NCBI RefSeq assembly: GCF_003233725.1
Contig: NZ_QKQV01000004.1
Location: 124,001-188,000, forward strand
Origin: Mesonia sp. K7
Lineage (GTDB): Bacteria; Bacteroidota; Bacteroidia; Flavobacteriales; Flavobacteriaceae
Length of the DNA: 64,000 bases
Direction of reading: 5' to 3'
Below the pieces are notes generated by a model. It was not told the DNA's origin and did no database searches. It worked only from the letters and a program-made list of their open reading frames with translations. Every line of letters starts with the position of its first letter. Positions within the stretch are counted from its first letter, which is position 1. A program made the translations under genes and the position numbers. Positions 3,541-39,092 of this stretch are shown here, piece after piece.

Positions 3541-3548
3541 CAAAGATT
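3541..3548 (-). promoter_or_regulatory. Possible -7 box of the FAD oxidoreductase, overlapping the gldN stop
   Basis: The minus strand reads AATCTTTG followed by CA, one mismatch from TAnnTTTG. It overlaps the gldN stop codon. A transcript from here would start around 3534 and carry the whole terminator hairpin in its leader. Confidence 0.35.
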
Positions 3549-4443
3549 AGTAATTCCAAAGATTAGCTTCAAAATCTCTTATTGTCTCTTTGATTCTTTG
3601 AGACTCTAACAATTGCATAAGAGTGTTATCTGCTATATAATCATCTACCTCTCGATCTCCATAAACGTTATCCTCTTTTTCGATCACTGCATCAAAACGT
3701 CTTGAGTTTAGCAAATGGTCGAATGTGATAGGTACAGCAGAGTTTTGCTCATTAAATACATAGTTGGCATGCATCTGTTTACGAACCTCTGGGTAAAAAA
3801 CCCAAAACAAATCTACTGGAACTACCTCTAAATCTGGATTCTCTTGTTGTTGTAATTTGTTTTGTGCTGAAACTACAACTGGACATAAAGCCAAAAGTCT
3901 CCAACGTAAATCACCTTGTCTCTTATCTACATACCAATATCCACGGATTCTGTAACCAGCAACATCTGCTGGCTTAATTTCTGCCATAGAATAATGCCAT
4001 TCTTCAACCGCTTCTCCTGCATTTTGAGCCGCTATACCTTCATCGTTTAATACCTTTACAGACAAGTTGGTCTCCAACTGTTCCATAGGATAAGTTTGAT
4101 GAAAATAAGAATCGTAATACATAGTTACGCTATCTTTTTTGATAGCTTCAATTAAAACCTCAAACAAAGAACGACGTCCTTGACTAACTTTATCTAACGG
4201 GAATAGTAATGGAAAGTTTACACGTTGGTTTAAATCAATATACTCCCAAGTTGTCTTAGCCCACATTACATCTCTATCATCAACATATCCGTATGGTAAA
4301 GGTTCAGTATTGGCATCGTTTTCTATTTGCGCTTGACTTTTCTTACCAATTTCATCAGGCTTTGTAGCATTTAAGATGTTACTTTGAGCATACATACTTA
4401 AAGTAGCAATAAAAGCTAATACTAAAAAACAACTCTTTTTCAT
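3547..4443 (-). CDS. gldN: T9SS/gliding motility protein GldN
   Basis: A protein of 298 residues with a signal peptide (about 1-19, ending MYAQ), so it is periplasmic. GldN (PorN in Porphyromonas) is the component that joins the GldK outer-membrane ring to the GldM shaft of the type IX secretion system. The sequence has the family's PYGYVDDRDVMWAKTTWEYIDL region at about 50-71 and a closing IKETIRDFEANLWNY. The length is normal for the family. It is last in the gldK-gldL-gldM-gldN operon, 15 bases after gldM, and is followed by a strong terminator. Confidence 0.96.
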   Translation of the reverse strand: MKKSCFLVLAFIATLSMYAQSNILNATKPDEIGKKSQAQIENDANTEPLPYGYVDDRDVMWAKTTWEYIDLNQRVNFPLLFPLDKVSQGRRSLFEVLIEAIKKDSVTMYYDSYFHQTYPMEQLETNLSVKVLNDEGIAAQNAGEAVEEWHYSMAEIKPADVAGYRIRGYWYVDKRQGDLRWRLLALCPVVVSAQNKLQQQENPDLEVVPVDLFWVFYPEVRKQMHANYVFNEQNSAVPITFDHLLNSRRFDAVIEKEDNVYGDREVDDYIADNTLMQLLESQRIKETIRDFEANLWNY

Positions 4444-4458
4444 AAATATAATATTTTA

Positions 4459-6006
4459 TTAATCTGTCAATTCAATTACTAACGGAGCTACTCTTGGTAA
4501 CTTATAGCTTGAGTTTCCAGAAATTTTTGCGTTGATATCAAAAATCTGAATCACATCACCACGTTTAGCTGAGTTTAAAGCAGCTTCTGCAGCTCCGTTA
4601 AGTCTTGTACCGTTTACTTGTACTACTGGCTTACCAATTACTTGGAATTTAAATCCTGAAACCACTAAATTTAAATCGAAGTCAAAATCTGGAAGCTTTG
4701 CGCTTACCGGAGAAACCTGAACAGCTCTTCTTGATAAACGAATAGTACCATCCATACCGTCTTTTGCTCCAATTACACCCACTGGACGTGGAATTTCTTT
4801 AATTCTAAATGTTTTACTATCTGAAACAGTTTCACCGTTTGGTAATTCCCCAGAAACGTTAATTTTAACCTCTCTCGCTTTTACATTGGTTACGTCCATC
4901 ATATAGCTTCCAGCTCCTCCAGATTGTCTTAGACCTGGTGCATTTGCACTTACTACAGGAACACCTGGAATAGAAATCGTCATTGGGTTTTGTACCCCAC
5001 GATAAACCACGTTCATTTTATCTGCAGAGATAACCGCTGCGTTTGGTTTTGGAATTACTGCATAAGAACTTTCGATAGGAATAGATTTCACTTCACCATC
5101 TTCTGTAAACTGAATCTCTCCTTTAAGTTCTCTTTCCCCAACATTTCCTGCTGGAAAATCTAAAACTACTTGACCGTTTTCCATTTTCTCCATTTCAGCA
5201 CCGTTGATGATAACCTTATCAAACTGAGTGTTTTCATCAACTCTACCTAAAACAACTCTACCAGTAAAATTCTCACCGTTAAAGAATGCTGTTTTATCAG
5301 CAATAACGATAGCTTTATAGTTTGTTAAAGAAACTTGACTCCCTAAGTTACCTTGGAACATTGCTGACAAGACCTCGCTTTCAGTAGACTTAATATCAGA
5401 CTGCATTTTAGTCAATTTAGTAAGTGACGCAATTAAAGGGAAACCTACAAAATGATAGTTGATGTAATCTCTTTTTACCTTTTCACCGTCAACAATATCT
5501 TCAGTAGAAAACTTCTCCTCTAACTGTTTCTTTTGAACGGGAAATTGATCACCCATTTCTGCAGCTACTTTCGTTCTATAGTCTTTAATTTTGTTTAGAA
5601 ACTCTTGTCCCTCTGGTGAAACTTTACCTCCTCTGTAGAAAAGTTCATCAAAGTAATCTCCTTTATCCATAGATTCGTAATCTCTCTTATCATCCATTTC
5701 AGCTGTCGCTTCATTTTTAAGATTTTCGATATATGAATATAATTCATTTGAAGCTGCACTAATTTTTTTAGCCTTTTCTTGTAAAGGAACATATTGCTTA
5801 GGTTGTTCAGCCGCTTTTTCAGCTAAGCCTGCCATAAAAGCATTGTTTCTATCAGTAGCTGTTCTATTGTGCTGCTCAAAACTTTCGTTAAACGTACCAA
5901 AAGCAGTTAATACTTCTTTAGACATATTTAGTGCCATCATTGCGATGAATACCAAATACATTAAGTTAATCATCTTCTGCCTTGGTGATAATTTGCCTCC
6001 TGCCAT
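4459..6006 (-). CDS. gldM: T9SS/gliding motor shaft protein GldM
   Basis: A protein of 515 residues. It opens with the GldM signature MAGGKLSPRQKMINLMYLVF, a short cytoplasmic tail leading into a single inner-membrane helix (about 12-32). The rest is a long periplasmic region: a helical part to about 220, then beta-rich domains. In the family, a GldM dimer threads through the GldL ring and passes proton-driven rotation to GldK/GldN at the outer membrane. The length is typical. It starts 38 bases after gldL and is followed closely by gldN. Confidence 0.97.
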   Translation of the reverse strand: MAGGKLSPRQKMINLMYLVFIAMMALNMSKEVLTAFGTFNESFEQHNRTATDRNNAFMAGLAEKAAEQPKQYVPLQEKAKKISAASNELYSYIENLKNEATAEMDDKRDYESMDKGDYFDELFYRGGKVSPEGQEFLNKIKDYRTKVAAEMGDQFPVQKKQLEEKFSTEDIVDGEKVKRDYINYHFVGFPLIASLTKLTKMQSDIKSTESEVLSAMFQGNLGSQVSLTNYKAIVIADKTAFFNGENFTGRVVLGRVDENTQFDKVIINGAEMEKMENGQVVLDFPAGNVGERELKGEIQFTEDGEVKSIPIESSYAVIPKPNAAVISADKMNVVYRGVQNPMTISIPGVPVVSANAPGLRQSGGAGSYMMDVTNVKAREVKINVSGELPNGETVSDSKTFRIKEIPRPVGVIGAKDGMDGTIRLSRRAVQVSPVSAKLPDFDFDLNLVVSGFKFQVIGKPVVQVNGTRLNGAAEAALNSAKRGDVIQIFDINAKISGNSSYKLPRVAPLVIELTD

Positions 6007-6044: not shown

Positions 6045-6680
6045 TTATGCGTTTGGACGCATAGCAGTTAACATACCTCCGTAAACATTGTTTAAGCTAG
6101 ATAAATTAGTAGCTAAGTTTTGCATTTCAGACTGAAGTTTTGATGCATTTTCTGCAACAGCTTGATTCGCTTCTGCTTGTCTGCTTGCAGACTCTAATTG
6201 TACTTTATACAAGTTGTTTAAAGATTCCATTTGTGCAGCTGCCAAAGTCATTTCTTCGCTGTATTTCTTTTGAGAAGTAATCGCATCTACGGTAGGTGAC
6301 ATGTTCTTAGCAGCACCTTCAAAGTTTCTGATACTATCACCTAAACTGCTCATTAATTCACCATCTATTTTCGCTTCTTTAAGCATGTTATCTAGTTTTT
6401 TAGATAATAAGCCTTCTGCTTCTTGAGCTTCTTTGATGTTTTTTCTTGAAGCTTCTCCACCAGCTAATTCTGGATAAACAAGAGACCAGTCTAATTCGTC
6501 ATCTGCAGGTTCGAACGCAGAATACGCAAATACTAATGCTTCTACAATAAGACCTGCAATAAGCATAGGGTTTGCAAATGGCCAGTGCATAATTTTAAAT
6601 AAAGCTCCTAAAATTACTACTGCTGCTCCAAGACCATATACCATATTGGTCAATTTCTTTGCTGATTTTGATTTTGCCAT
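6045..6680 (-). CDS. gldL: T9SS/gliding motor stator-like protein GldL
   Basis: A protein of 211 residues. Two membrane helices fill residues 13-33 and 38-56. Glu47 in helix 2 sits where the family has the essential proton-carrying glutamate of the GldLM motor, and Lys/His residues (K29, H32) lie at the end of helix 1. The cytoplasmic C-terminal part is a long, probably helical domain. GldL forms the inner-membrane ring around the GldM helix and uses the proton motive force. It lies between gldK (65 bases) and gldM (38 bases). Confidence 0.97.
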   Translation of the reverse strand: MAKSKSAKKLTNMVYGLGAAVVILGALFKIMHWPFANPMLIAGLIVEALVFAYSAFEPADDELDWSLVYPELAGGEASRKNIKEAQEAEGLLSKKLDNMLKEAKIDGELMSSLGDSIRNFEGAAKNMSPTVDAITSQKKYSEEMTLAAAQMESLNNLYKVQLESASRQAEANQAVAENASKLQSEMQNLATNLSSLNNVYGGMLTAMRPNA

Positions 6681-6745: not shown

Positions 6746-8122
6746 TTATCTCGCACCTCCACCTTGAGCGAAATCGAAATCTTCTCCAGGTGCATCTTGT
6801 ACTGTTCTAAAGCCAATATAGCTTCTCGCAGAATCTGAATATTCGTAATCTCTGGTGCTAACTTGTAAGTAATATTCTACATCTTTCCAGGATCCACCAC
6901 GAGTAACTTTACGTTTATTGTTTTTGTCGTTTACGTTAGGGTTCATCGAAGAATAGAACTCATACGATGAAGCATCGTAAGAAGAATCCACCCATTCTGC
7001 AACGTTACCTGACATATTATAAAGGTTAAAATTATTTGCTTCATAAGCATCGGCTTCAACCGTGTATAATGCCTGATCTGCCGCATAATCACCTCGCAAA
7101 GGTTTAAAGTTTGCCAAAAAGCAAGCTCTATCGTTCATTGCGTAAGGACCTCCCCAAGGAAAAGTTCCTGACTCTAAACCACCTCTTGCTGCATATTCCC
7201 ATTCTGCCTCAATAGGTAAACGATACATATTTACTCTATGCTGACCTTTTTCTGTTTTATAGCCATTATGTAACAGTGTTCTCCAATCACAAAAAGCTTT
7301 TGCTTGTTTCCAACTCACACCAACCACTGGGTACTCATCATAAGCCGAGTGCCAGAAATAGTCATTATGCATCGGAACATTATAAGAATAATGGAAATCT
7401 TTAATCCAAACAGTTGTATCTGGATAAACCGCTACTTGATCTTCTTTTATAAAATCAGAACGATTACCTTGAGCTCTTGCCGCTTCTTCTATGTCTAAGT
7501 ATTTAAAACTGTATACAAACTTAGTAACATCCATCAAACGCATACCATTATATGATTGGTCGTTTGGAAGATAAAATTCATCCATTACATATACGTAAGA
7601 CTCATCTGGATATTCATCTTTTTCCCAAATGATGTCTACATCCCAGTTGATACCTTGCTGGTTGGGATCGTAATGCTTAGAGTACTGTTGATAAGGAGTT
7701 TGCGTTTGTTGATTATTACCTCCTTGAGCAGTAGCAGAGCCTTTGAAAGCAAAATCAGCAATAGAACCATTGTTACCTCCAGCACTTCCACCACCTGATA
7801 ATTCTGCCTCTTCTCCTAGACGTTGACGGATTACAGAATCCCTCGTCCAGTGAACAAATTGACGGTACTCAGAATTGGTAATTTCGGTCTCATCCATGTA
7901 AAATGAATTTACCGTAACGGTTTTGGTAGGAGCATCGTCTACTCCTGCCATATCGTCGTCTGATTTACCCATGATAAAAGCACCTCCTGGAACTAAACTC
8001 ATTCCGTAAGGTTTTTCTGCGTGCCATTTTTTACCTTTTACTCCTACTAATTGCCCATTGGTATTACCTCCACAACTAGCTAAAAAAGCAGATATTACTA
8101 GAATAGCAAAAATTTTTCTCAT
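6746..8122 (-). CDS. gldK: T9SS/gliding lipoprotein GldK
   Basis: A protein of 458 residues with a lipoprotein signal peptide whose lipobox LASC places the lipidated cysteine at residue 17. The body is a formylglycine-generating-enzyme (SUMF1)-like fold; near the C-terminus are NMSGNVAEWVDS, RGGSW and a YIGFRTV ending. In GldK/PorK the fold is structural: the protein forms the periplasmic outer-membrane ring with GldN. A Gly/Asn/Gln-rich insertion lies at about 107-145. It is the first gene of gldKLMN; a promoter with both boxes at good spacing lies at 8166-8196. Confidence 0.96.
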   Translation of the reverse strand: MRKIFAILVISAFLASCGGNTNGQLVGVKGKKWHAEKPYGMSLVPGGAFIMGKSDDDMAGVDDAPTKTVTVNSFYMDETEITNSEYRQFVHWTRDSVIRQRLGEEAELSGGGSAGGNNGSIADFAFKGSATAQGGNNQQTQTPYQQYSKHYDPNQQGINWDVDIIWEKDEYPDESYVYVMDEFYLPNDQSYNGMRLMDVTKFVYSFKYLDIEEAARAQGNRSDFIKEDQVAVYPDTTVWIKDFHYSYNVPMHNDYFWHSAYDEYPVVGVSWKQAKAFCDWRTLLHNGYKTEKGQHRVNMYRLPIEAEWEYAARGGLESGTFPWGGPYAMNDRACFLANFKPLRGDYAADQALYTVEADAYEANNFNLYNMSGNVAEWVDSSYDASSYEFYSSMNPNVNDKNNKRKVTRGGSWKDVEYYLQVSTRDYEYSDSARSYIGFRTVQDAPGEDFDFAQGGGAR

Positions 8123-8165
8123 AACTTATATTAAGGTTAAGATGATCTTTTTAATTATAAGGGCG

Positions 8166-8196
8166 TAAACCTATCTAAATATTTCCTAAAAAACAA
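8166..8196 (-). promoter_or_regulatory. Promoter of the gldKLMN operon
   Basis: On the minus strand, TTG (8196-8194) is followed by 20 bases and TAGGTTTA (8173-8166), which matches TAnnTTTG in seven of eight positions. This is the usual Bacteroidota spacing. The leader to the gldK ATG is about 40 bases. Confidence 0.55.
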
Positions 8197-8232
8197 TAAT
8201 TTTTTAAAAAAAAGTTAAAATTTAGAAAACAT

Positions 8233-9393
8233 CTACACTTCATTTTTCCTTTGCGCTTTCCACCAGCGCTCTGGAATATTTTGATTACAAGCATCTAAAT
8301 AATCTTGATGCGTACAAGGCAATAACGTGGTTTTATCTAAATTATTGTTAAAACCATTAAAAATTGAAATTTCTATCCACCAACGACCAGAAATCTCGCT
8401 TTTGTAAAATGTTAAAACCTCATCTTCTATAAGGACCTTGTACTTTATAAAATCTTTTTGAGCTTGAAGAGTATTTTCATTTTTTCGATAAGCTACTCCC
8501 TCTAAAAAGTACCATAAAATTTGGGCAACCAACATAATACTATTTTCTGAGTTTTGCAAATTTTCTAGATGATATAAACCAAAACTAGATAATTGGTCAC
8601 TTATGCCTGCATATCTTGCAATTCTACAGATTTCTCTGTTGGTAAAACCATTTGGGTTTCCGATGGTATTCTTTTCTTGAAAAGATTCTATGGTATTGAT
8701 ATCGATAGCTACAATATCGGCATTTCTAAAAATGGGCTCTGTTTTTTCGATGTTGGAAGTGGCTTCTCCAAGTCTTATTGCATCAAAATACAATTTCTCT
8801 AAGAGATCTATTTCTTCTTGCGAATTATAAAACGTTTGATAACCTACATTAGAATAGTTATATAAGTTATAGGGTTGATTAATGACCATTTTCCCTACGT
8901 ATGAGGATGATGAAATTGGTGCCTCGGTATTCCCTAAGTCAAACTTGGTGTCTACGTTTACATAATTAATCATTTTACCAAAATCGTCGTAAGCTCGGTA
9001 ATTGGCATAAACCAAATCTTGACTTCCTCCTAATATAATAGGTATGATTTTGTTTTTAACCAATTCGGCAACAATAGACTTTAAAGCAAAATAAGTATCT
9101 TCTACAGAATTTCCTGGGTGGATATTTCCTAAATCTGCAACTTGAAAACCCCAGTTTCCTGCATACAATTGATAAAATTTTTGCCTGATTTCCTGAAAAG
9201 GATAGGCATCATAACCTGACTGAAGGTTACTTCTTCTATTCTCTAAAACTCCTAAAACAGCAACTTTTATACTCGATAAATCTGGGAACTTTTCTTGTGT
9301 ATGGATTTGAATTTGATTTCCCAACAGATTTTTATCTTGAAGAAAAGTCTCATCAAACTCAATATTTATCGGGTGAAGAAAATCGGTCCACAT
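8233..9393 (-). CDS. Arginase/formimidoylglutamase-fold protein with altered metal site
   Basis: A protein of 386 residues with the layout of the arginase/agmatinase/formimidoylglutamase superfamily. Orthologues beside topA in flavobacteria are usually labelled formimidoylglutamase. The family's manganese ligands are changed: GGDH is here GGSQ (Gln125), DxHxD is DTKFD (Asp148, Lys150, Asp152) and DxD is DIN (Asp231, Asn233). Three of the six usual ligands are therefore missing, and hydrolysis of arginine or formimidoylglutamate is doubtful. No signal peptide or membrane helix is seen. It starts only 3 bases after the topA stop, so it is very probably cotranscribed with topA. The fold call is good; the activity in the usual name is not supported. 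Confidence 0.75.
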   Translation of the reverse strand: MWTDFLHPINIEFDETFLQDKNLLGNQIQIHTQEKFPDLSSIKVAVLGVLENRRSNLQSGYDAYPFQEIRQKFYQLYAGNWGFQVADLGNIHPGNSVEDTYFALKSIVAELVKNKIIPIILGGSQDLVYANYRAYDDFGKMINYVNVDTKFDLGNTEAPISSSSYVGKMVINQPYNLYNYSNVGYQTFYNSQEEIDLLEKLYFDAIRLGEATSNIEKTEPIFRNADIVAIDINTIESFQEKNTIGNPNGFTNREICRIARYAGISDQLSSFGLYHLENLQNSENSIMLVAQILWYFLEGVAYRKNENTLQAQKDFIKYKVLIEDEVLTFYKSEISGRWWIEISIFNGFNNNLDKTTLLPCTHQDYLDACNQNIPERWWKAQRKNEV

Positions 9394-9396
9394 AGG

Positions 9397-11901
9397 TTAC
9401 TTTTTCTTTTTGGTCGTTGTTTTTTTTGTGGTTTTCTTTTTAGCAGTCTTCTTTTTTGGTGATTTTTTCTCGATGAGTTCTTTCACCTCTTCCAACGTAA
9501 GTTGAGAAGCATCTACAGTTTTCGGTAGTTCAATCTTTATTTTTCCTTTGGTAATCTTACTTCTTCCCCAACGTGCTTTTTCTACTTTTATCCCTTCGTC
9601 TTTCCAATGATGAATCACCTTATCAATCTCCTTTTGCTTCTTATCCTCAATCAGTTCTTCGATATCATCGTTAGATAAGTTATCAAAATCATACTTTTTA
9701 TTCACATTTATAAAAATGCCATTCCATTTGATAAAAGGCCCAAATCTACCTACGCCTTTTTGCACGTCGTGTCCTTCATAATTATAGATAGGAGCATCGG
9801 CTTTTTCTTTGGCTGCGATCAGTTCCATAGCGCGATCTAAGTCTACGTCAAGCGGATTTTCACCTTTTTCTAGCGAAACAAACTTTTTTCCGTAACGCAC
9901 ATAAGGCCCGTAACGTCCATTATTTACCTCAACACTTTCTCCTTTATACTCACCTAAGGCTTTTGGGAGTTTAAACAAGTCTAGAGCTTCTTCAAAAGTA
10001 ATCGTGTTTAGTGATTGATCTTCCATCAGGCTCGCAAAAAGTGGCTTTTCTTCATCGTCGACCGTACCAATTTGCACCATCGGACCAAATTTTCCTAACC
10101 TTACGCTCACTTGCCTTCCTGTATTCGGGTCGGTTCCTAAAATGCGCTCACCAACTTCCCGCTCTGCATTTTCGGCAACATCTTCTACCCGTGGGTGAAA
10201 ATCTTTATAGAAATCGCTCATCATTTGTGTCCACTTTTCATTTCCTTCGGCAATGTCGTCAAAATCTTGCTCTACCTTGGCGGTGAAATTATAATCGAGA
10301 ATACTACTAAAGTGTTGCACCAAAAAGTCGTTGACCACCATTCCTATATCGGTTGGCATCAATTTTCCTTTGTCGGCTCCAACAGTTTCCGTTAAGGTTT
10401 TTTCAGAAATTTTATCTGCTTCCAAAGTAAATTTAAGATATTTCCTTTCTTGACCCTCCAAACTTCCTTTCTCTATATAGTTTCTATTCTGAATGGTAGA
10501 AATGGTTGGTGCATACGTAGAAGGTCGACCAATACCCAATTCTTCCAACTGTTTTACCAGCGAAGCTTCCGTATATCTTGAAGGTTGCCTTGTGTATCTT
10601 TCTGTCGCTGTGATGTATTGGTTTTGCAAATCGTCACCTATTTTCATCGTTGGCAACAAACCTGCTTGCTCTTCGTCTTCTTCGTCTTTTCCTTCTAGGT
10701 AAACTTTTAAAAACCCATCAAACTTGAGCATTTCACCATTTGCCGTAAATTCTGTCGTATGTTTATCTGCTTTTACTTTGACATTGGTTCTTTCTAATTG
10801 CGCATCACTCATTTGCGAAGCAATCGCACGTTTCCAGATCAGCTCATACAACCGCTGTTGATCGTATTCTACATTGATCGATTGATTTTCGAAATTGGTC
10901 GGACGAATAGCTTCGTGTGCTTCCTGTGCTCCTTTACTTTTTCCTTTGTAATTTCTGGCTTTGTGGTATTTTTCGCCGTAAGCGGAAATAATCTCTTGCT
11001 GCGCTCCGCTTTTTGCCTCATCTGAAAGGTTCACACTATCGGTTCTCATATAGGTAATGTGCCCCGCCTCGTACAAACGTTGCGCCATTGTCATCGTTTT
11101 ACTCACCGAAAAATAAAGTTTTCTTGCCGCTTCTTGTTGTAAAGTAGAAGTGGTAAATGGCGGCGCAGGTGACTTTTTCGCAGGCTTTTTGGTTAAATCG
11201 GCTACTTCAAAATTAGCTCCTATATTTTCTTTTAAGAAATTCTCAGCTTCAGCTTTGGTGTCGAAGTTTTTAGGCAATTTTGCTTTAAAGCTTTTACCCT
11301 TTTCCGTTAGAAATTCGGCATCTATACGGTAGAAAACCTGTGGTTTGAAATCTTGTATTTCGCGTTCGCGTTCTACAATCAAACGTACCGACACCGATTG
11401 AACACGACCAGCCGATAATCCTCCTTTTACTTTTCGCCATAAAACTGGTGAAAGCTCATAACCCACCAAACGGTCTAAGACTCGTCTCGCTTGTTGTGCG
11501 TTGACCAGATTATAGTCTATTTCACGAGGGTTTTCAATCGCTTTAAGGATGGCTTTTTTGGTGATTTCATGAAAAACAATACGCTTGGTTTTGTTTTTAT
11601 CTAACTTTAAGACTTCTGCCAAATGCCATGCAATCGCTTCTCCTTCACGGTCTTCATCACTCGCCAACCAAACGGTATCCGCTTTATCGGCAAGGCTTTT
11701 TAATTTTTTAACGACATCTTTCTTGTCTTTACTTACAATATATTTTGGCTTAAAATCTTTCTCAACATCAACTCCCAATTCTTTTGCCGGTAAATCTGCC
11801 ACGTGCCCAAAACTAGATTCCACCTGGTATTCTTTTCCTAAAAATTTCTCGATGGTTTTAGCCTTTGCAGGTGACTCTACGATTACTAAATTTTTTGCCA
11901 T
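9397..11901 (-). CDS. topA: DNA topoisomerase I
   Basis: A type IA topoisomerase of 834 residues that relaxes negative supercoils. The TOPRIM domain is at 1-120 (VIVESPAKAKTIEKFLG; acidic DEDREGE at 82-88). The catalytic tyrosine is Tyr284 in GHITYMRTDS. Downstream, the GIGRPSTYAPTIS segment is clear. The C-terminus lacks the cysteine zinc fingers of E. coli TopA. It has topoisomerase C-terminal repeats instead (GKFGPMVQIG, GRYGPYVRYG, GRFGPFIKW), ending in a lysine-rich tail (KKKTAKKKTTKK) that probably binds DNA. A promoter box lies at 11922-11929. The arginase-fold gene follows after 3 bases. Confidence 0.97.
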   Translation of the reverse strand: MAKNLVIVESPAKAKTIEKFLGKEYQVESSFGHVADLPAKELGVDVEKDFKPKYIVSKDKKDVVKKLKSLADKADTVWLASDEDREGEAIAWHLAEVLKLDKNKTKRIVFHEITKKAILKAIENPREIDYNLVNAQQARRVLDRLVGYELSPVLWRKVKGGLSAGRVQSVSVRLIVEREREIQDFKPQVFYRIDAEFLTEKGKSFKAKLPKNFDTKAEAENFLKENIGANFEVADLTKKPAKKSPAPPFTTSTLQQEAARKLYFSVSKTMTMAQRLYEAGHITYMRTDSVNLSDEAKSGAQQEIISAYGEKYHKARNYKGKSKGAQEAHEAIRPTNFENQSINVEYDQQRLYELIWKRAIASQMSDAQLERTNVKVKADKHTTEFTANGEMLKFDGFLKVYLEGKDEEDEEQAGLLPTMKIGDDLQNQYITATERYTRQPSRYTEASLVKQLEELGIGRPSTYAPTISTIQNRNYIEKGSLEGQERKYLKFTLEADKISEKTLTETVGADKGKLMPTDIGMVVNDFLVQHFSSILDYNFTAKVEQDFDDIAEGNEKWTQMMSDFYKDFHPRVEDVAENAEREVGERILGTDPNTGRQVSVRLGKFGPMVQIGTVDDEEKPLFASLMEDQSLNTITFEEALDLFKLPKALGEYKGESVEVNNGRYGPYVRYGKKFVSLEKGENPLDVDLDRAMELIAAKEKADAPIYNYEGHDVQKGVGRFGPFIKWNGIFINVNKKYDFDNLSNDDIEELIEDKKQKEIDKVIHHWKDEGIKVEKARWGRSKITKGKIKIELPKTVDASQLTLEEVKELIEKKSPKKKTAKKKTTKKTTTKKKK

Positions 11902-11921
11902 AATTGTATTTTGTATGATTG

Positions 11922-11929
11922 CAAAAGTA
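11922..11929 (-). promoter_or_regulatory. -7 box of topA
   Basis: The minus strand reads TACTTTTG followed by CA, an exact TAnnTTTG match 20 bases upstream of the topA ATG. Confidence 0.55.
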
Positions 11930-12057
11930 TATGATTTTTTTTATTTCGTTTTTTGGAAGCCATGAAAAGTTTTATGACCATCTTAAATTAGAGCATTTGT
12001 TTTATAATAATAGACTACAAAACTTTAAATTAGTCTTTTATTTTAAATCATTCATTA

Positions 12058-13209
12058 ATGAGATTATTTTTTCTTTTATTGATACTTATTTCGTGCAAAC
12101 AAAACAACAAACATCTCAGCGAATTAGAAAAAGAACATATAATAGTTTACGCTGATTATAGTAAGTGTAGCGATAACCAGGTTTTTTATTTGTTTGATGA
12201 ATCAAATAATATTTTAGATTCTTTAGATTCATCTCTATCAGATCAAGAAGTAAGAATTCTAAGTCAAAACCCTAAAAGGATGTATATTAGTCCCTCTAAA
12301 GGTTTAGAAAAATTCAAAACTTTTTATTTTGATAAAGGCGAAAATAAATTAGCAATAGATTGCAAAAAAGATATTGACTCTGTTAAAATCATTGGTTCTA
12401 AAATTAATGAAGAATACGAAAGCCTTCATAACCATAATTATGGTATAAATAAAGCTTTGCTATACAACTATGAATTAATACGCATCAATAACCAGCTCAT
12501 TCAAAATTCATATTTTAAAAAAGATAGCATTCAGTTAATAATTGATAAATTAAAATCAGAACAAGAGATAATATTAGAAAAATATCTTCTATCTGAACTA
12601 GATTTCTTTGAAGGTAAAACAAGTTCTTATTTGTTTGTTGATCACTTAAGCCTTCTTATTTCAAGATCGTATGCAAAAAAACATATAGATAGAATAACCT
12701 CTATTTACAAAAACCTAACTCCAGATATTAAAAATACCGATAAAGGAAAATTACTAAAAGAAAGAATAGATGTTTTTTATAAAAGCAATGTTGGAAGCAA
12801 TATATCAAACATTACCCTTAATGATATTTCAAAAAAACCAATAAATTTTAATAACCTAAAAGGAAAATACTTGTTGATAGATTTTTGGGCTTCTTGGTGT
12901 GTTCCTTGTATTCAAGATTTTCCTTTCTTAAAGAATTTAAAAAAAGCCCATAAAGAGAATCTTAATGTGATATCTATTTCAATAGATAAAGATATTACCT
13001 CATGGGAAAAAGCGATTAAAAAACATCAAATTGATGGCTTTATACACATTTCATTGGCACAAAACCAAGCTTTAAGAGTAGCTGAGAGAACTTTTTCAGT
13101 AACGGGTATTCCTGTGAAAATATTAGTAAATCCTGAAGGAGTTATTATTGGGCGATGGAGAGGTTATGATACTGGTCATCATCTTGAAATCAAAAAGCTA
13201 ATTCAATAA
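12058..13209 (+). CDS. TlpA/ResA-like thioredoxin lipoprotein
   Basis: A protein of 383 residues with a short lipoprotein signal (lipobox LISC, Cys13), so it is predicted to be membrane-anchored in the periplasm. Residues about 250-383 are a TlpA-type thioredoxin domain with active site WCVPC (Cys281, Cys284) and the cis-proline loop TGIPVKIL. The N-terminal 230 residues are Lys/Asn/Ile-rich and match nothing I recognise, though many Bacteroidota TlpA proteins carry such a partner domain. Its likely role is thiol-disulfide exchange on exported proteins. It stands alone, divergent from topA and upstream of miaB. Its AT content looks higher than its neighbours', and no clear promoter is visible. 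Confidence 0.85.
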   Translation: MRLFFLLLILISCKQNNKHLSELEKEHIIVYADYSKCSDNQVFYLFDESNNILDSLDSSLSDQEVRILSQNPKRMYISPSKGLEKFKTFYFDKGENKLAIDCKKDIDSVKIIGSKINEEYESLHNHNYGINKALLYNYELIRINNQLIQNSYFKKDSIQLIIDKLKSEQEIILEKYLLSELDFFEGKTSSYLFVDHLSLLISRSYAKKHIDRITSIYKNLTPDIKNTDKGKLLKERIDVFYKSNVGSNISNITLNDISKKPINFNNLKGKYLLIDFWASWCVPCIQDFPFLKNLKKAHKENLNVISISIDKDITSWEKAIKKHQIDGFIHISLAQNQALRVAERTFSVTGIPVKILVNPEGVIIGRWRGYDTGHHLEIKKLIQ

Positions 13210-13366: not shown

Positions 13367-14812
13367 ATGGAGAAGGTGATTGAAGAAAGTAAACAAGGTA
13401 CATCGCTTGTTCTGGAGGGAAATACAATCAACACCAAAAAACTTTTTATCGAAAGTTATGGTTGCCAAATGAATTTTAGCGATAGTGAGATTGTAGCTTC
13501 CATTCTTGCCAAAGAAGGTTTTAACACTACTCAAAACATAGAAGATGCCGATTTGGTTTTGGTCAACACGTGTTCTATCCGTGACAAAGCCGAACAAACC
13601 GTGCGTAAACGTCTCGAAAAATACAACGCTGTTAAAAGAATCAACCCAAAAATGAAAGTGGGTGTTCTCGGCTGTATGGCAGAACGTTTAAAGAGCAAGT
13701 TTTTAGAAGAAGAAAAAATTGTAGATCTCGTCGTAGGCCCAGATGCCTACAAAGATTTACCCAACTTGATCGAAGAAGTAGACGAAGGCCGAGATGCGAT
13801 TAATGTGATTTTATCGAAAGAAGAAACTTACGGCGATATCTCTCCGGTGCGCTTACAATCGAATGGAGTGACTGCTTTTGTTTCTATCACTAGAGGTTGT
13901 GACAATATGTGTACCTTTTGCGTAGTACCTTTCACCAGAGGACGCGAACGAAGTCGTGACCCACAAAGTATTGTTGAAGAAATAAATGATTTAGCCAATA
14001 AAGGTTTTAAAGAAGTTACTTTACTTGGGCAAAATGTTGATAGCTACCTTTGGTATGGTGGTGGCCTGAAAAAAGATTTTGATAAAGCCAGCGAAATGCA
14101 AAAAGCTACTGCTGTAAATTTTGCAGGATTGCTTGATATGGTTGCCAAAGCACAACCAAAAATGCGTTTTAGATTTTCGACTTCCAATCCGCAAGATATG
14201 ACGCTTGATGTGATTGAAGTGATGGCAAAGCATCAGAACATTTGTAAATACATTCACTTGCCAGTACAAAGTGGTAGCGATAGGATTCTTCAGAAAATGA
14301 ATCGTTTGCATACCAGAGCAGAATATTTTGAGTTGATTGACAACATCAGAAAACTAATTCCAGATTGTGCTATTTCGCAAGATATGATTGCTGGTTTTCC
14401 AACAGAAACCGAAGAAGACCATCAAGACACGCTTTCGCTGATGGAATATGTAAAGTATGATTTCGGATTTATGTTTGCTTATTCTGAAAGACCAGGAACA
14501 ATGGCAGGCAGAAAGTTTGAAGATGACGTACCTGAAAAAGTAAAAAAGAGAAGGTTACAAGAGATTATTCAGCTACAGCAAAAACATTCTCTGTATCGTA
14601 CTGAAGAGCATTTAGGAAAAACAGAAGAGGTTTTAATCGAAAAAGAATCCAAAAAATCTGATTCACACTGGAGTGGAAGAAACACTCAAAACACAATGGT
14701 AGTTTTCCCGAAAGAAAATTATAAAGTAGGTGATTTTGTAAATGTAAAAATTACTGACTGCACCAGTGCAACTTTAATTGGCGAAGCTGTGGGATATTCA
14801 GATAACAATTAA
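13367..14812 (+). CDS. miaB: tRNA-2-methylthio-N6-isopentenyladenosine37 methylthiotransferase MiaB
   Basis: A protein of 481 residues that adds the 2-methylthio group to i6A37 of tRNAs reading UNN codons. The N-terminal UPF0004 domain opens with [13 protein letters not shown] and carries the three cysteines for the auxiliary Fe-S cluster. The radical-SAM motif is GCDNMCTFC (Cys178, Cys182, Cys185). A TRAM-like RNA-binding domain closes the protein. The first 20 residues before the domain are unconserved, as in other flavobacterial MiaB proteins. It begins a tight run of genes: the sigma-54 activator starts 6 bases after the miaB stop. Confidence 0.97.
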
Positions 14813-37284: not shown

Positions 37285-38079
37285 ATGCAAAAAGATAATC
37301 CCATAGGAATGTTTGACTCTGGAGTTGGCGGCACTTCTATCTTAAAAGAAGTATACAAATTACTCCCCAATGAAAAAATTATTTATTTGGCAGATAGCAA
37401 AAATGCGCCTTATGGTTCTCGTTCTCAACAAGAGATTATCGATCTTTCTATCAAAAACACAGAATTCCTGCTAGAAAAAGGAGCTAAAATAATTGTCGTT
37501 GCTTGCAATACAGCTACCACCAACGCAATAAAGGTTTTACGGGCAAATTATACCGTTCCCTTTATAGGAATTGAGCCTGCGATCAAACCTGCAGCCTTAA
37601 AATCTACCAATAACATTATTGGAATACTCGCTACTAAAGGAACTCTCTCTAGCGAACTTTTTTCGGAAACCTCTAAAGTGTTTGTTCAAAACACTAAAAT
37701 CATAGAGGTTGTAGGAGAAGGTTTAGTACCTTTAATTGAAAACGGTGATCTACACAGCCAAAAGATGATAAGCTTGCTAGAAAAACTCTTAAAACCCTTT
37801 ATTGAAAACCAAATTGATTACCTTGTTCTAGGTTGCAGTCATTACCCGTACATTATTCCACAGATAAAAAGAATATTACCCGATAATGTAAGCATTATAG
37901 ATTCCGGTGAAGCTGTCGCAAAACAAACAAAAGCGGTTTTAGAAAGCAAAAATCTTTTAAGTGATCATTCCTTAACTGAAAAACCAACACTCTACACCAA
38001 CAAAGATATTGAAGTTTTAGAACTTTTGTTAGACAACAAAAATCTTCAGAAATACCGTATTAGCTACTTAGATTTTTAG
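37285..38079 (+). CDS. murI: Glutamate racemase
   Basis: A protein of 264 residues that interconverts L- and D-glutamate for peptidoglycan. The two catalytic cysteines are Cys74 (VVACNTATT) and Cys184 (LGCSHYP), with Asp11 in MFDSGVGG. The length is normal. It starts 18 bases after the ompH terminator and converges on the PorP/SprF-like gene, overlapping it by 4 bases at the 3' ends. Confidence 0.96.
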   Translation: MQKDNPIGMFDSGVGGTSILKEVYKLLPNEKIIYLADSKNAPYGSRSQQEIIDLSIKNTEFLLEKGAKIIVVACNTATTNAIKVLRANYTVPFIGIEPAIKPAALKSTNNIIGILATKGTLSSELFSETSKVFVQNTKIIEVVGEGLVPLIENGDLHSQKMISLLEKLLKPFIENQIDYLVLGCSHYPYIIPQIKRILPDNVSIIDSGEAVAKQTKAVLESKNLLSDHSLTEKPTLYTNKDIEVLELLLDNKNLQKYRISYLDF

Positions 38080-39092
38080 TAGTTGATAGCTGGACAATTA
38101 CAATGATATGGTTCTTTAGATCCACCAAAATTGTAACCTAAGGTGATTTGGTGAAAACCATTTGATAAAATCAAAGCATTTACTTGATGCGTGTAGGTAT
38201 AAGCAAACATAAACTTGTTGAAGTTAATCCCTACAAAAGGTGAAAAATGCTGTAACTTTTGGCTTTCAATAGTTCCTAAACCATCTTCCGTAAATTCTGC
38301 ACCATCAAGGCTTCTTCTATAAGATAAACCACCCCAAATTTGACCAAAATCTAATTCTCTATACACTTTAAAGTTACCATCGATTGCAGATTCCCCTGTT
38401 TCTTCTTTTGTTTGGAACATAATTGAAGGTTCAAAACTCCAATCAGAGTTATACTGAGAAAAAACATAGCCTAACGAAAGTAAATATTGTCTTTGGTTTT
38501 CAGATTCTAACTCAGTAAAAATTCTACGTGGTGTAGGAACAATATTTTTTGCTGTAAAGTGTGCGTAAAAATCTAGAAAGAAGTAAGACATACCAAAGTC
38601 CACATTAAATACAGACTCACTATTATTTCCTCCTGTAATAATTGGATCATTAGGATTTGTACCTCCAATCAAGTCACTTTCATCAAGACCTTCTTGTACC
38701 ACGCCCACATTTAAACCAAAAGACAACTGGTTGAGGTCTACCCTATCTCTAGAAAGCAGCAAGTGATAGGCAAATGTTGCCATCGCGCCTTGTTGAGAAA
38801 ACCTACCATTGTTATCATTATAAATAATCGCACCAACACCAATATTAGACTCTCCTATTCTTCCGTTTATCGTTAGGGTTTCTAAAGAAGGAGCATCTTC
38901 TATATCAAACCACTGTCGACGAGCTGTAAGTCTAATCTTATTATTGATACCTGCTCCAGCCATCGATGGGTGAATAAGGTAATAATTATCGGTAAGATAG
39001 TCATAATAAACTGGGACTCCTCTCTCTTGTGAAAACGATATAATAGGTAAACTGAAAAGTATAAGAAGTAAGTAGGGTTTTAAATATCTCAT
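38076..39092 (-). CDS. PorP/SprF family T9SS outer-membrane protein
   Basis: A protein of 338 residues with a signal peptide (about 1-21, ending SFSQ). It shows the PorP/SprF start: PVYYDYLTDNYYLIHPSMAG, then RRQWFDIEDAPSLETLTING. The rest is amphipathic strands ending HQITLGYNFGG and a cysteine-containing tail (YHCNCPAINY). Members are 14-strand barrels that dock surface adhesins or T9SS cargo. Flavobacteria have many paralogues; this one, beside murI and not beside an adhesin gene, may be the T9SS-core PorP. Two CGCCAAAATAA copies lie upstream. Confidence 0.88.
   Translation of the reverse strand: MRYLKPYLLLILFSLPIISFSQERGVPVYYDYLTDNYYLIHPSMAGAGINNKIRLTARRQWFDIEDAPSLETLTINGRIGESNIGVGAIIYNDNNGRFSQQGAMATFAYHLLLSRDRVDLNQLSFGLNVGVVQEGLDESDLIGGTNPNDPIITGGNNSESVFNVDFGMSYFFLDFYAHFTAKNIVPTPRRIFTELESENQRQYLLSLGYVFSQYNSDWSFEPSIMFQTKEETGESAIDGNFKVYRELDFGQIWGGLSYRRSLDGAEFTEDGLGTIESQKLQHFSPFVGINFNKFMFAYTYTHQVNALILSNGFHQITLGYNFGGSKEPYHCNCPAINY

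Follow-up and report, generated by a model that had tools for sequence, protein, structure and literature searches.

What is an arginase-fold protein that lacks half of its metal ligands doing between topA and the genes of the type IX secretion system (T9SS)? The question is raised by a 64,000-nucleotide stretch of the genome of Mesonia sp. K7 (Flavobacteriaceae; contig NZ_QKQV01000004.1, positions 124,001 to 188,000 of the forward strand), referred to here as the window, in which an uninterrupted open reading frame (ORF) with an ATG start (8233-9393, minus strand) encodes a protein of 386 aa. On a single strand of the window, topA precedes this gene by 3 nt, and gldK follows it after 110 nt, with gldL, gldM and gldN behind. 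In many Bacteroidota, it is the T9SS that powers secretion and gliding, and both genetic and structural studies have dissected it. An earlier note on this DNA had described the protein as a pseudo-enzyme whose usual name misstates its role, and it is called pseudo-arginase in the following. Two-metal catalysis is, with high confidence, not expected from the ligand set that the protein retains and has in all likelihood been lost. A more tentative answer, which we regard as nearly an even prospect, is that pseudo-arginase is a cytoplasmic arginase-fold pseudoenzyme without two-metal hydrolysis that persists in a binding or scaffolding role for the T9SS and gliding machinery.

Membership of the arginase superfamily, which the earlier note had assigned from the sequence alone, was confirmed by a PF00491 profile match of 37.9 bits (curated cut-off, 22) and by fold. 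A structure predicted from the window protein together with 37 orthologues (predicted local distance difference test score (pLDDT), 76.1; predicted template modelling score (pTM), 0.81) matched T. cruzi formiminoglutamase (PDB 4myl) with Z 26.9 over 259 residues (root-mean-square deviation, 2.7) spanning residues 20-304; comparison of the whole model really probes residues 12-306 only. HutG (TIGR01227; PDB 3m1r, 4mxr/4myl) shares the arginase fold with pseudo-arginase over residues ~12-305 (Z 24-27) and is its best sequence profile match, but pseudo-arginase differs by its broken two-metal ligand set, a sub-cut-off score, an extra C-terminal extension and its T9SS context. As the best NCBIfam model, hutG (formimidoylglutamase) scored 49.2 bits and did not reach its curated equivalog cut-off of 229.15, and four other orthologues scored 55, 71, 45 and 98 bits against the same model. 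The name formimidoylglutamase is thus unearned, as had been suspected. A Mariniflexile genome paper reports, in the part that was available, formiminoglutamase as the sole step of histidine degradation found; this entry may be a misnamed pseudo-arginase.

Six metal-ligand positions (125, 148, 150, 152, 231 and 233) were set by alignment with canonical relatives, in which the full set reads HDHDDD. The window protein reads Q, D, K, D, D, N and retains three of the six ligands; the reading of Gln125, Lys150 and Asn233 as substituted ligands was correct, and 148, 152 and 231 are Asp. The alignment comprised 238 rows (232 distinct sequences), namely the window protein and 237 orthologues (58 from Flavobacteriaceae genomes, 80 from named genome contigs, 40 from other families or distant family members and 59 from further families of the class), with rows weighted toward Flavobacterium, which makes up the bulk of the 80 named loci. 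The orthologue sets exclude L003 and L004, which are the window itself, and L262 was also unused, while four rows of one family (f5; L172-L175) are counted among the 238 but stood outside the profile behind the gene-order and linkage counts, the ligand readings of single loci and the extent of the canonical matches given below. A full six-ligand set was found in none of the 238 rows, and likewise in none of the 232 distinct sequences, compared with 18 of the 22 canonical relatives, drawn from the same phylum. The case of full-ligand orthologues combined with a sequencing error in this genome, against which the earlier note had weighed its own claim, therefore fails. Separately, a single odd ligand was seen in otherwise canonical arginase-family relatives, as His to Asn in L192 and L198, Asp to Cys in L201 and Asp to Asn in L184.

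The three substitutions of the window protein are not fixed among its orthologues. The canonical residue was retained in 25 rows at position 125 (His), 224 at 148 (Asp), 6 at 150 (His), 214 of 237 at 152 (Asp), 225 at 231 (Asp) and 8 at 233 (Asp), and the replacements were chiefly Gln (192) or Asn (10) at position 125, Lys (120) or Arg (48) at 150, and Asn (81), Ser (61) or Thr (32) at 233. What stayed constant is that His150 and Asp233 never occurred together (0/238). Sorted by the number of ligands retained, 27 rows have four, 187 have three, 12 have two, 9 have one and 3 have none, and Asp148, Asp152 and Asp231 were all retained in 210 of 238 rows (204 of the 232 distinct sequences). From rat arginase, we take positions 150 and 233 to be the ligands that serve the second metal alone and positions 125, 148, 152 and 231 to form the first site. 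On this assignment, the second metal site is incomplete throughout the aligned rows, and the first usually consists of three Asp with Gln or His and is lost in several lineages. The f2 lineage reads N-S-I-S-N-D in 5/5 loci, with one canonical ligand kept and five of six lost, single loci of other families read A-T-R-P-N-G, P-G-Q-H-E-S, N-S-G-D-D-T and E-G-K-N-D-G, and the site is partly or mostly gone in loci of f2, f75, f51, f80, f83 and f5. In conservation, Asp148, Asp152 and Asp231 rank 56th to 70th of 386 positions, below C-terminal Trp and Cys residues, and Glu275, found in 21 of 22 canonical relatives, was present in 95 of 238 rows.

Some of the most conserved positions lie outside the old metal site. 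Profile matches of canonical relatives end at about residue 305, and the orthologues run on for ~80 residues in which Trp338 (238 rows), Cys360 (237), Phe329 (236) and Tyr365 (234) are nearly invariant. Within the core, Trp294 (238/238) and the Glu219/Arg223 pair (237/238 each) are fixed yet rare in canonical relatives; together with the extension, these residues look like a putative binding surface. When searched alone, the extension matched no Pfam family worth naming (best E-value 0.19, short of the cut-off) and no sequence in the PDB, and had no second copy in the window genome. Modelled alone (pLDDT 69, a weak model), it gave no Foldseek match under E 0.56, which is no proof of a new fold. 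In f5 (L172-L175 and L253; proteins of 277-379 aa), the arginase core was degenerate, and most rows shown still had the part of the extension with RWW and Cys.

A tree of the arginase core alone, built from 34 orthologues chosen among the 238, none of them from f5, together with 22 canonical relatives, placed the orthologues all on one side of a branch with an SH-aLRT of 98. With the full ligand set missing from every orthologue but present in most canonical relatives, and with the orthologues forming a separate clade, the pseudo-enzyme claim is well supported by comparison. The median ratio of nonsynonymous to synonymous substitution rates (dN/dS) for pairs of named loci was 0.028, 0.045 and 0.043 by dS bin (12, 16 and 122 pairs), compared with 0.026-0.035 for topA, 0.020-0.035 for gldK and 0.049-0.134 for gldM, where the pairs are non-independent and one of the 80 GldK rows is probably wrong (locus L133 ends before gldK). 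By these estimates, the pseudo-arginase gene is conserved, is under strong purifying selection near the level of topA and gldK, and is not decaying. A pseudogene or sequencing error is ruled out by these low ratios and by the missing ligand set in 238/238 rows.

Gene order was conserved along with the sequence. Among the 80 named loci, topA was directly upstream in all 80 (median gap 3 nt, range 1-133) and gldK directly downstream in 79 (median gap 247 nt), the remaining locus being L133. The common orders were topA-gene-gldKLMN in Flavobacteriaceae and topA-gene-porP-gldKLMN in many uncultured families. Of 21 loci, each from a different family, 16 read topA, pseudo-arginase, one gene of 303-333 aa and gldK, with gldL, gldM and gldN next wherever the contig extends far enough; of the other five, a seventeenth has two intervening genes, topA is missing from one, another stops behind the intervening gene and two show neither arrangement. 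When nine of the downstream neighbours were tested, eight were PorP/SprF (TIGR03519) and one was a sigma factor (L222, a locus without gldK). Across 40 genomes of 40 different families, pseudo-arginase and gldK were found on the same strand, 1.2-2.7 kb apart, in 27. The block also includes miaB and a gene that we take to be activator-like at many loci. The P. gingivalis T9SS operon is porPKLMN according to the available part of PMC5005315; compared with this operon and with gldKLMN, the loci described here form the same strand-consistent block with one extra gene ahead of porP or gldK. F. johnsoniae data, in the part of PMC12635249 that was available, suggest that neighbours in this operon act together.

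The gene was found in 117 of 120 Flavobacteriaceae genomes, including 100/100 near-complete ones. A profile of 24 diverse rows matched 366 of the 395 class genomes (319 of 339 near-complete), although three of these matches (G465, G494 and G496; best E ~1e-19 to 1e-20) are possibly canonical relatives and not orthologues. In a sample of the phylum, the 73 class members (own genome included) divided into 69 with both pseudo-arginase and GldK, two with GldK only, two with neither and none with pseudo-arginase only, GldK being called where TIGR03525 exceeded its cut-off and the table being read off search listings. GldK also exceeded the cut-off in 40/40 gene-bearing genomes taken one each from 40 further families, and was thus present in all 109 gene-bearing genomes tested, so that the distribution of pseudo-arginase was confined to T9SS-bearing genomes in these samples. 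Three observations on GldK itself were made along the way: on contig 18 of G160 (L148) it lies in an open frame of ~680 residues, far longer than usual and possibly a fusion; on contig 1 of G559 (2263430-2263999; family f11) a GldK match below the curated cut-off lies within an open frame of 2885 residues; and no GldK match was obtained in 3/5 f11 genomes tested.

A conserved linkage and a co-occurrence that runs in one direction point to service to the T9SS and gliding machinery. Following this reasoning, pseudo-arginase would have lost two-metal guanidino or formimino hydrolysis and would act in the cytoplasm, where it should reside because no signal sequence is apparent (no stretch resembling a signal peptide was found, and within residues 1-40 no 19-residue segment has a hydropathy as high as 0). 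The former substrate pocket (Gln/His125, Asp148, Asp152 and Asp231, with Lys/Arg150 at the second-metal position) may hold a ligand, one metal or nothing, and the conserved C-terminal surface would dock onto a cytoplasm-facing part of the T9SS. The cytoplasmic face of GldL is our guess for the docking partner, since PorX, a T9SS response regulator of P. gingivalis, is reported in the available part of PMC5005315 to bind PorL. By analogy, this interaction may serve as a precedent for a cytoplasmic protein acting on the T9SS motor. In a fuller version, which we consider unlikely as a whole, pseudo-arginase is a candidate cytoplasmic partner of the T9SS/gliding motor in which an arginase fold, co-opted for regulation or assembly and probably ancestral to the class, gained a new C-terminal docking domain, while its dead site senses a metabolite and passes this on to secretion or motility. 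A core component of the T9SS it is not, as GldK-bearing genomes without the gene rule this out; pseudo-arginase is also absent from the named T9SS components in the literature searched.

Several observations weigh against a role in the T9SS. Pseudo-arginase and gldK were on separate contigs in 13 of the 40 families (in one of these, G418, porP lies downstream and the contig then ends). Family f2 has TopA upstream in 5/5 loci with gldK not in the fetched flanks, although a stricter ORF picker labels TopA the immediate neighbour in just 2/5. In f3, f4, f5, f8 and f9, the gene adjoins neither topA nor gldK. The earlier description of a conserved neighbour of topA and gldK therefore holds in that the linkage is real and is that of the T9SS operon, with porP intervening in other families, but not throughout, as several families outside Flavobacteriaceae carry the gene away from both. 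In the named loci, the tight gap to topA (median 3 vs 247 nt to gldK) may reflect co-transcription with topA rather than gldK; a scan for promoters and terminators over 8000-12100 of the window returned nothing exceeding shuffles, which leaves the 3-nt gap as the sole pointer to co-transcription of pseudo-arginase with topA. Retention of the Asp triad in most rows suggests that the pocket still has some use. GldK-bearing genomes without pseudo-arginase were seen in f10 (2), f98 (2), f107, f66, one f11 and one f94 (82% complete) among the 20 that were listed of the 29 class genomes without a match, that is, GldK was present in 8/20, and below its cut-off in one more, of a sample picked for lacking the gene and therefore biased. 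Conversely, the sample not chosen for lacking the gene contained only two GldK-less class genomes (G346 and G354), so the contrast is thin. Finally, neighbourhood and co-occurrence may have been inherited jointly, as the samples are phylogenetically non-independent.

These points lend some weight to a pseudoenzyme that is tied to topA or to housekeeping, for example as a sensor of nucleotides, amino acids or polyamines, with the T9SS neighbourhood as an accident of a stable block. We regard this as somewhat unlikely. TopA directly upstream at every named locus, and upstream in the f2 loci where no gldK was seen, is in its favour, as are miaB and the presumed activator-like gene sharing the block in many loci; yet the genomes of f3, f4, f5, f8 and f9, in which the gene has moved away from topA, have GldK, and G346 and G354, the sole GldK-less class genomes in the sample not chosen for it, are also without pseudo-arginase. 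The Asp triad could further be taken to mean that catalysis or sensing relies on one metal, bound at the first site (Gln/His125, Asp148, Asp152 and Asp231), with Lys/Arg150 in place of the second metal. In its favour, 227/238 rows have Gln, His or Asn at position 125 and 168/238 have Lys or Arg at position 150, but part or most of the site has been lost in loci of the six families named above, its three Asp are less conserved than the C-terminal Trp and Cys, and Glu275 is kept in a minority of rows, which makes a single-metal protein quite unlikely.

Foldseek placed four metformin hydrolase chains at the top of its matches, and MetCb, in which five of six ligands are lost, binds MetCa (PMC11271267, as far as the text was available). 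Pseudo-arginase might by this comparison pair, as a catalytically dead subunit, with an active member of the arginase family, as MetCb/MfmB does in metformin hydrolase, and another arginase-family gene was found in 28/30 genomes. Two genomes that are 99 and 96% complete (G043 and G116) nevertheless have pseudo-arginase and no other PF00491 match, and none of 140 loci read with their flanks contained a second arginase-family ORF, hence no active partner nearby; we judge this arrangement very unlikely. Most improbable is a working formimidoylglutamase or other ureohydrolase. The best NCBIfam model and the best structural match (hutG and formiminoglutamase, respectively) both lean that way, and the window genome has a urocanase. 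Conversely, the hutG score falls far below its cut-off, no row has the full ligand set, a urocanase match was absent in 6/31 gene-bearing genomes (present in 25, the window genome included), and the window genome has two other arginase-family genes (L001 and L002), both with six ligands.

Among known proteins, arginase-fold members without a binuclear centre have been described in T. brucei and as MetCb (available part of PMC11271267). The T. brucei arginase-like protein (PDB 4rhm, 4rhl and 4rhq) matches the fold of pseudo-arginase with Z 19.6; it is eukaryotic, however, and the titles of its mutant entries (S149D, R151H, S153D and S226D) point to a different set of lost ligands with more Asp gone. 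In the MetCb clade, three to five of six ligands are changed and the protein is a metal-free binding partner (same source and extent). MetCb/MfmB (PDB 8x3g, 8ryi and 8snf) has in common with pseudo-arginase that both are arginase-family members with altered ligands, as far as the partly available source goes, but works with an active cognate subunit, for which the flanked loci and the two genomes above leave no counterpart. As in the TbARG/MetCb type of pseudoenzyme, ligand loss was found here in a conserved lineage under selection. In an ornithine decarboxylase/arginase of Fusobacteriaceae, the arginase domain has been inactivated by sequence divergence (PMC11271267, available part); in some species this domain belongs to a larger enzyme, whereas pseudo-arginase is a stand-alone, class-wide family. 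No link of an arginase-family gene or topA to gldK, porP, gliding or T9SS was found in the literature searched, the coverage of which was partial; a Prevotella report that mentions arginase, porP and T9SS together was set aside, as the part available concerns a mobile-element cargo gene.

The features of the window are collected in Table 1. Between topA and miaB, the window genome encodes a thioredoxin-like/AhpC-TSA protein of 383 aa (12058-13209), and a DUF4369 and AhpC-TSA protein of similar length lies directly downstream of the pseudo-arginase gene at an f3 locus (L145, 7262-8404). Given that disulfides between GldK and SprF are known, a redox partner close to the topA/pseudo-arginase block may be worth attention. 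A PorP/SprF-family gene was found elsewhere in the window (38076-39092; TIGR03519, 202 bits). The window genome has six TIGR03519 matches, none of them between the pseudo-arginase gene and gldK, which suggests that in this lineage porP has moved out of the topA-gldK block.

Table 1. Position and basis of the features discussed (coordinates of the window).
Feature	Position	Strand	Basis
Arginase-fold protein without half of the metal ligands	8233..9393	-	ORF; PF00491 37.9 bits; fold match
Gln125 codon, replaces His ligand	9019..9021	-	Alignment with canonical relatives
Lys150 codon, replaces second His ligand	8944..8946	-	Alignment with canonical relatives
Asn233 codon, replaces Asp ligand	8695..8697	-	Alignment with canonical relatives
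C-terminal extension, residues 305-386; near-invariant Trp338, Trp339, Cys360 and Tyr365; not in the 22 canonical relatives aligned	8236..8481	-	
topA, DNA topoisomerase I; directly upstream, 3-nt gap (9394-9396)	9397..11901	-	TIGR01051 730.6 bits, cut-off 456.4
gldK/porK, T9SS ring lipoprotein; directly downstream, 110-nt gap	6746..8122	-	TIGR03525 575.6 bits, cut-off 350
gldL/porL, T9SS motor protein	6045..6680	-	TIGR03513 240.8 bits
gldM/porM, T9SS motor protein	4459..6006	-	TIGR03517 490.3 bits
gldN/porN, T9SS ring subunit	3547..4443	-	TIGR03523 243.3 bits
miaB, divergent neighbour, often within the conserved block	13367..14812	+	TIGR01574 450.8 bits; gene orders

Overall, pseudo-arginase is a class-wide, T9SS-linked member of the arginase family with a C-terminal extension of its own, and joins metal-less arginase relatives already known elsewhere. 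A gene that often heads the T9SS operon seems to be undiscussed in the literature searched, and its products call for caution with the name formimidoylglutamase in these genomes. The family offers a natural series of stepwise metal-ligand loss in an enzyme fold, other features of which are still strongly selected, and, if the protein touches the motor, it would provide a cytoplasmic handle on the regulation of the T9SS.
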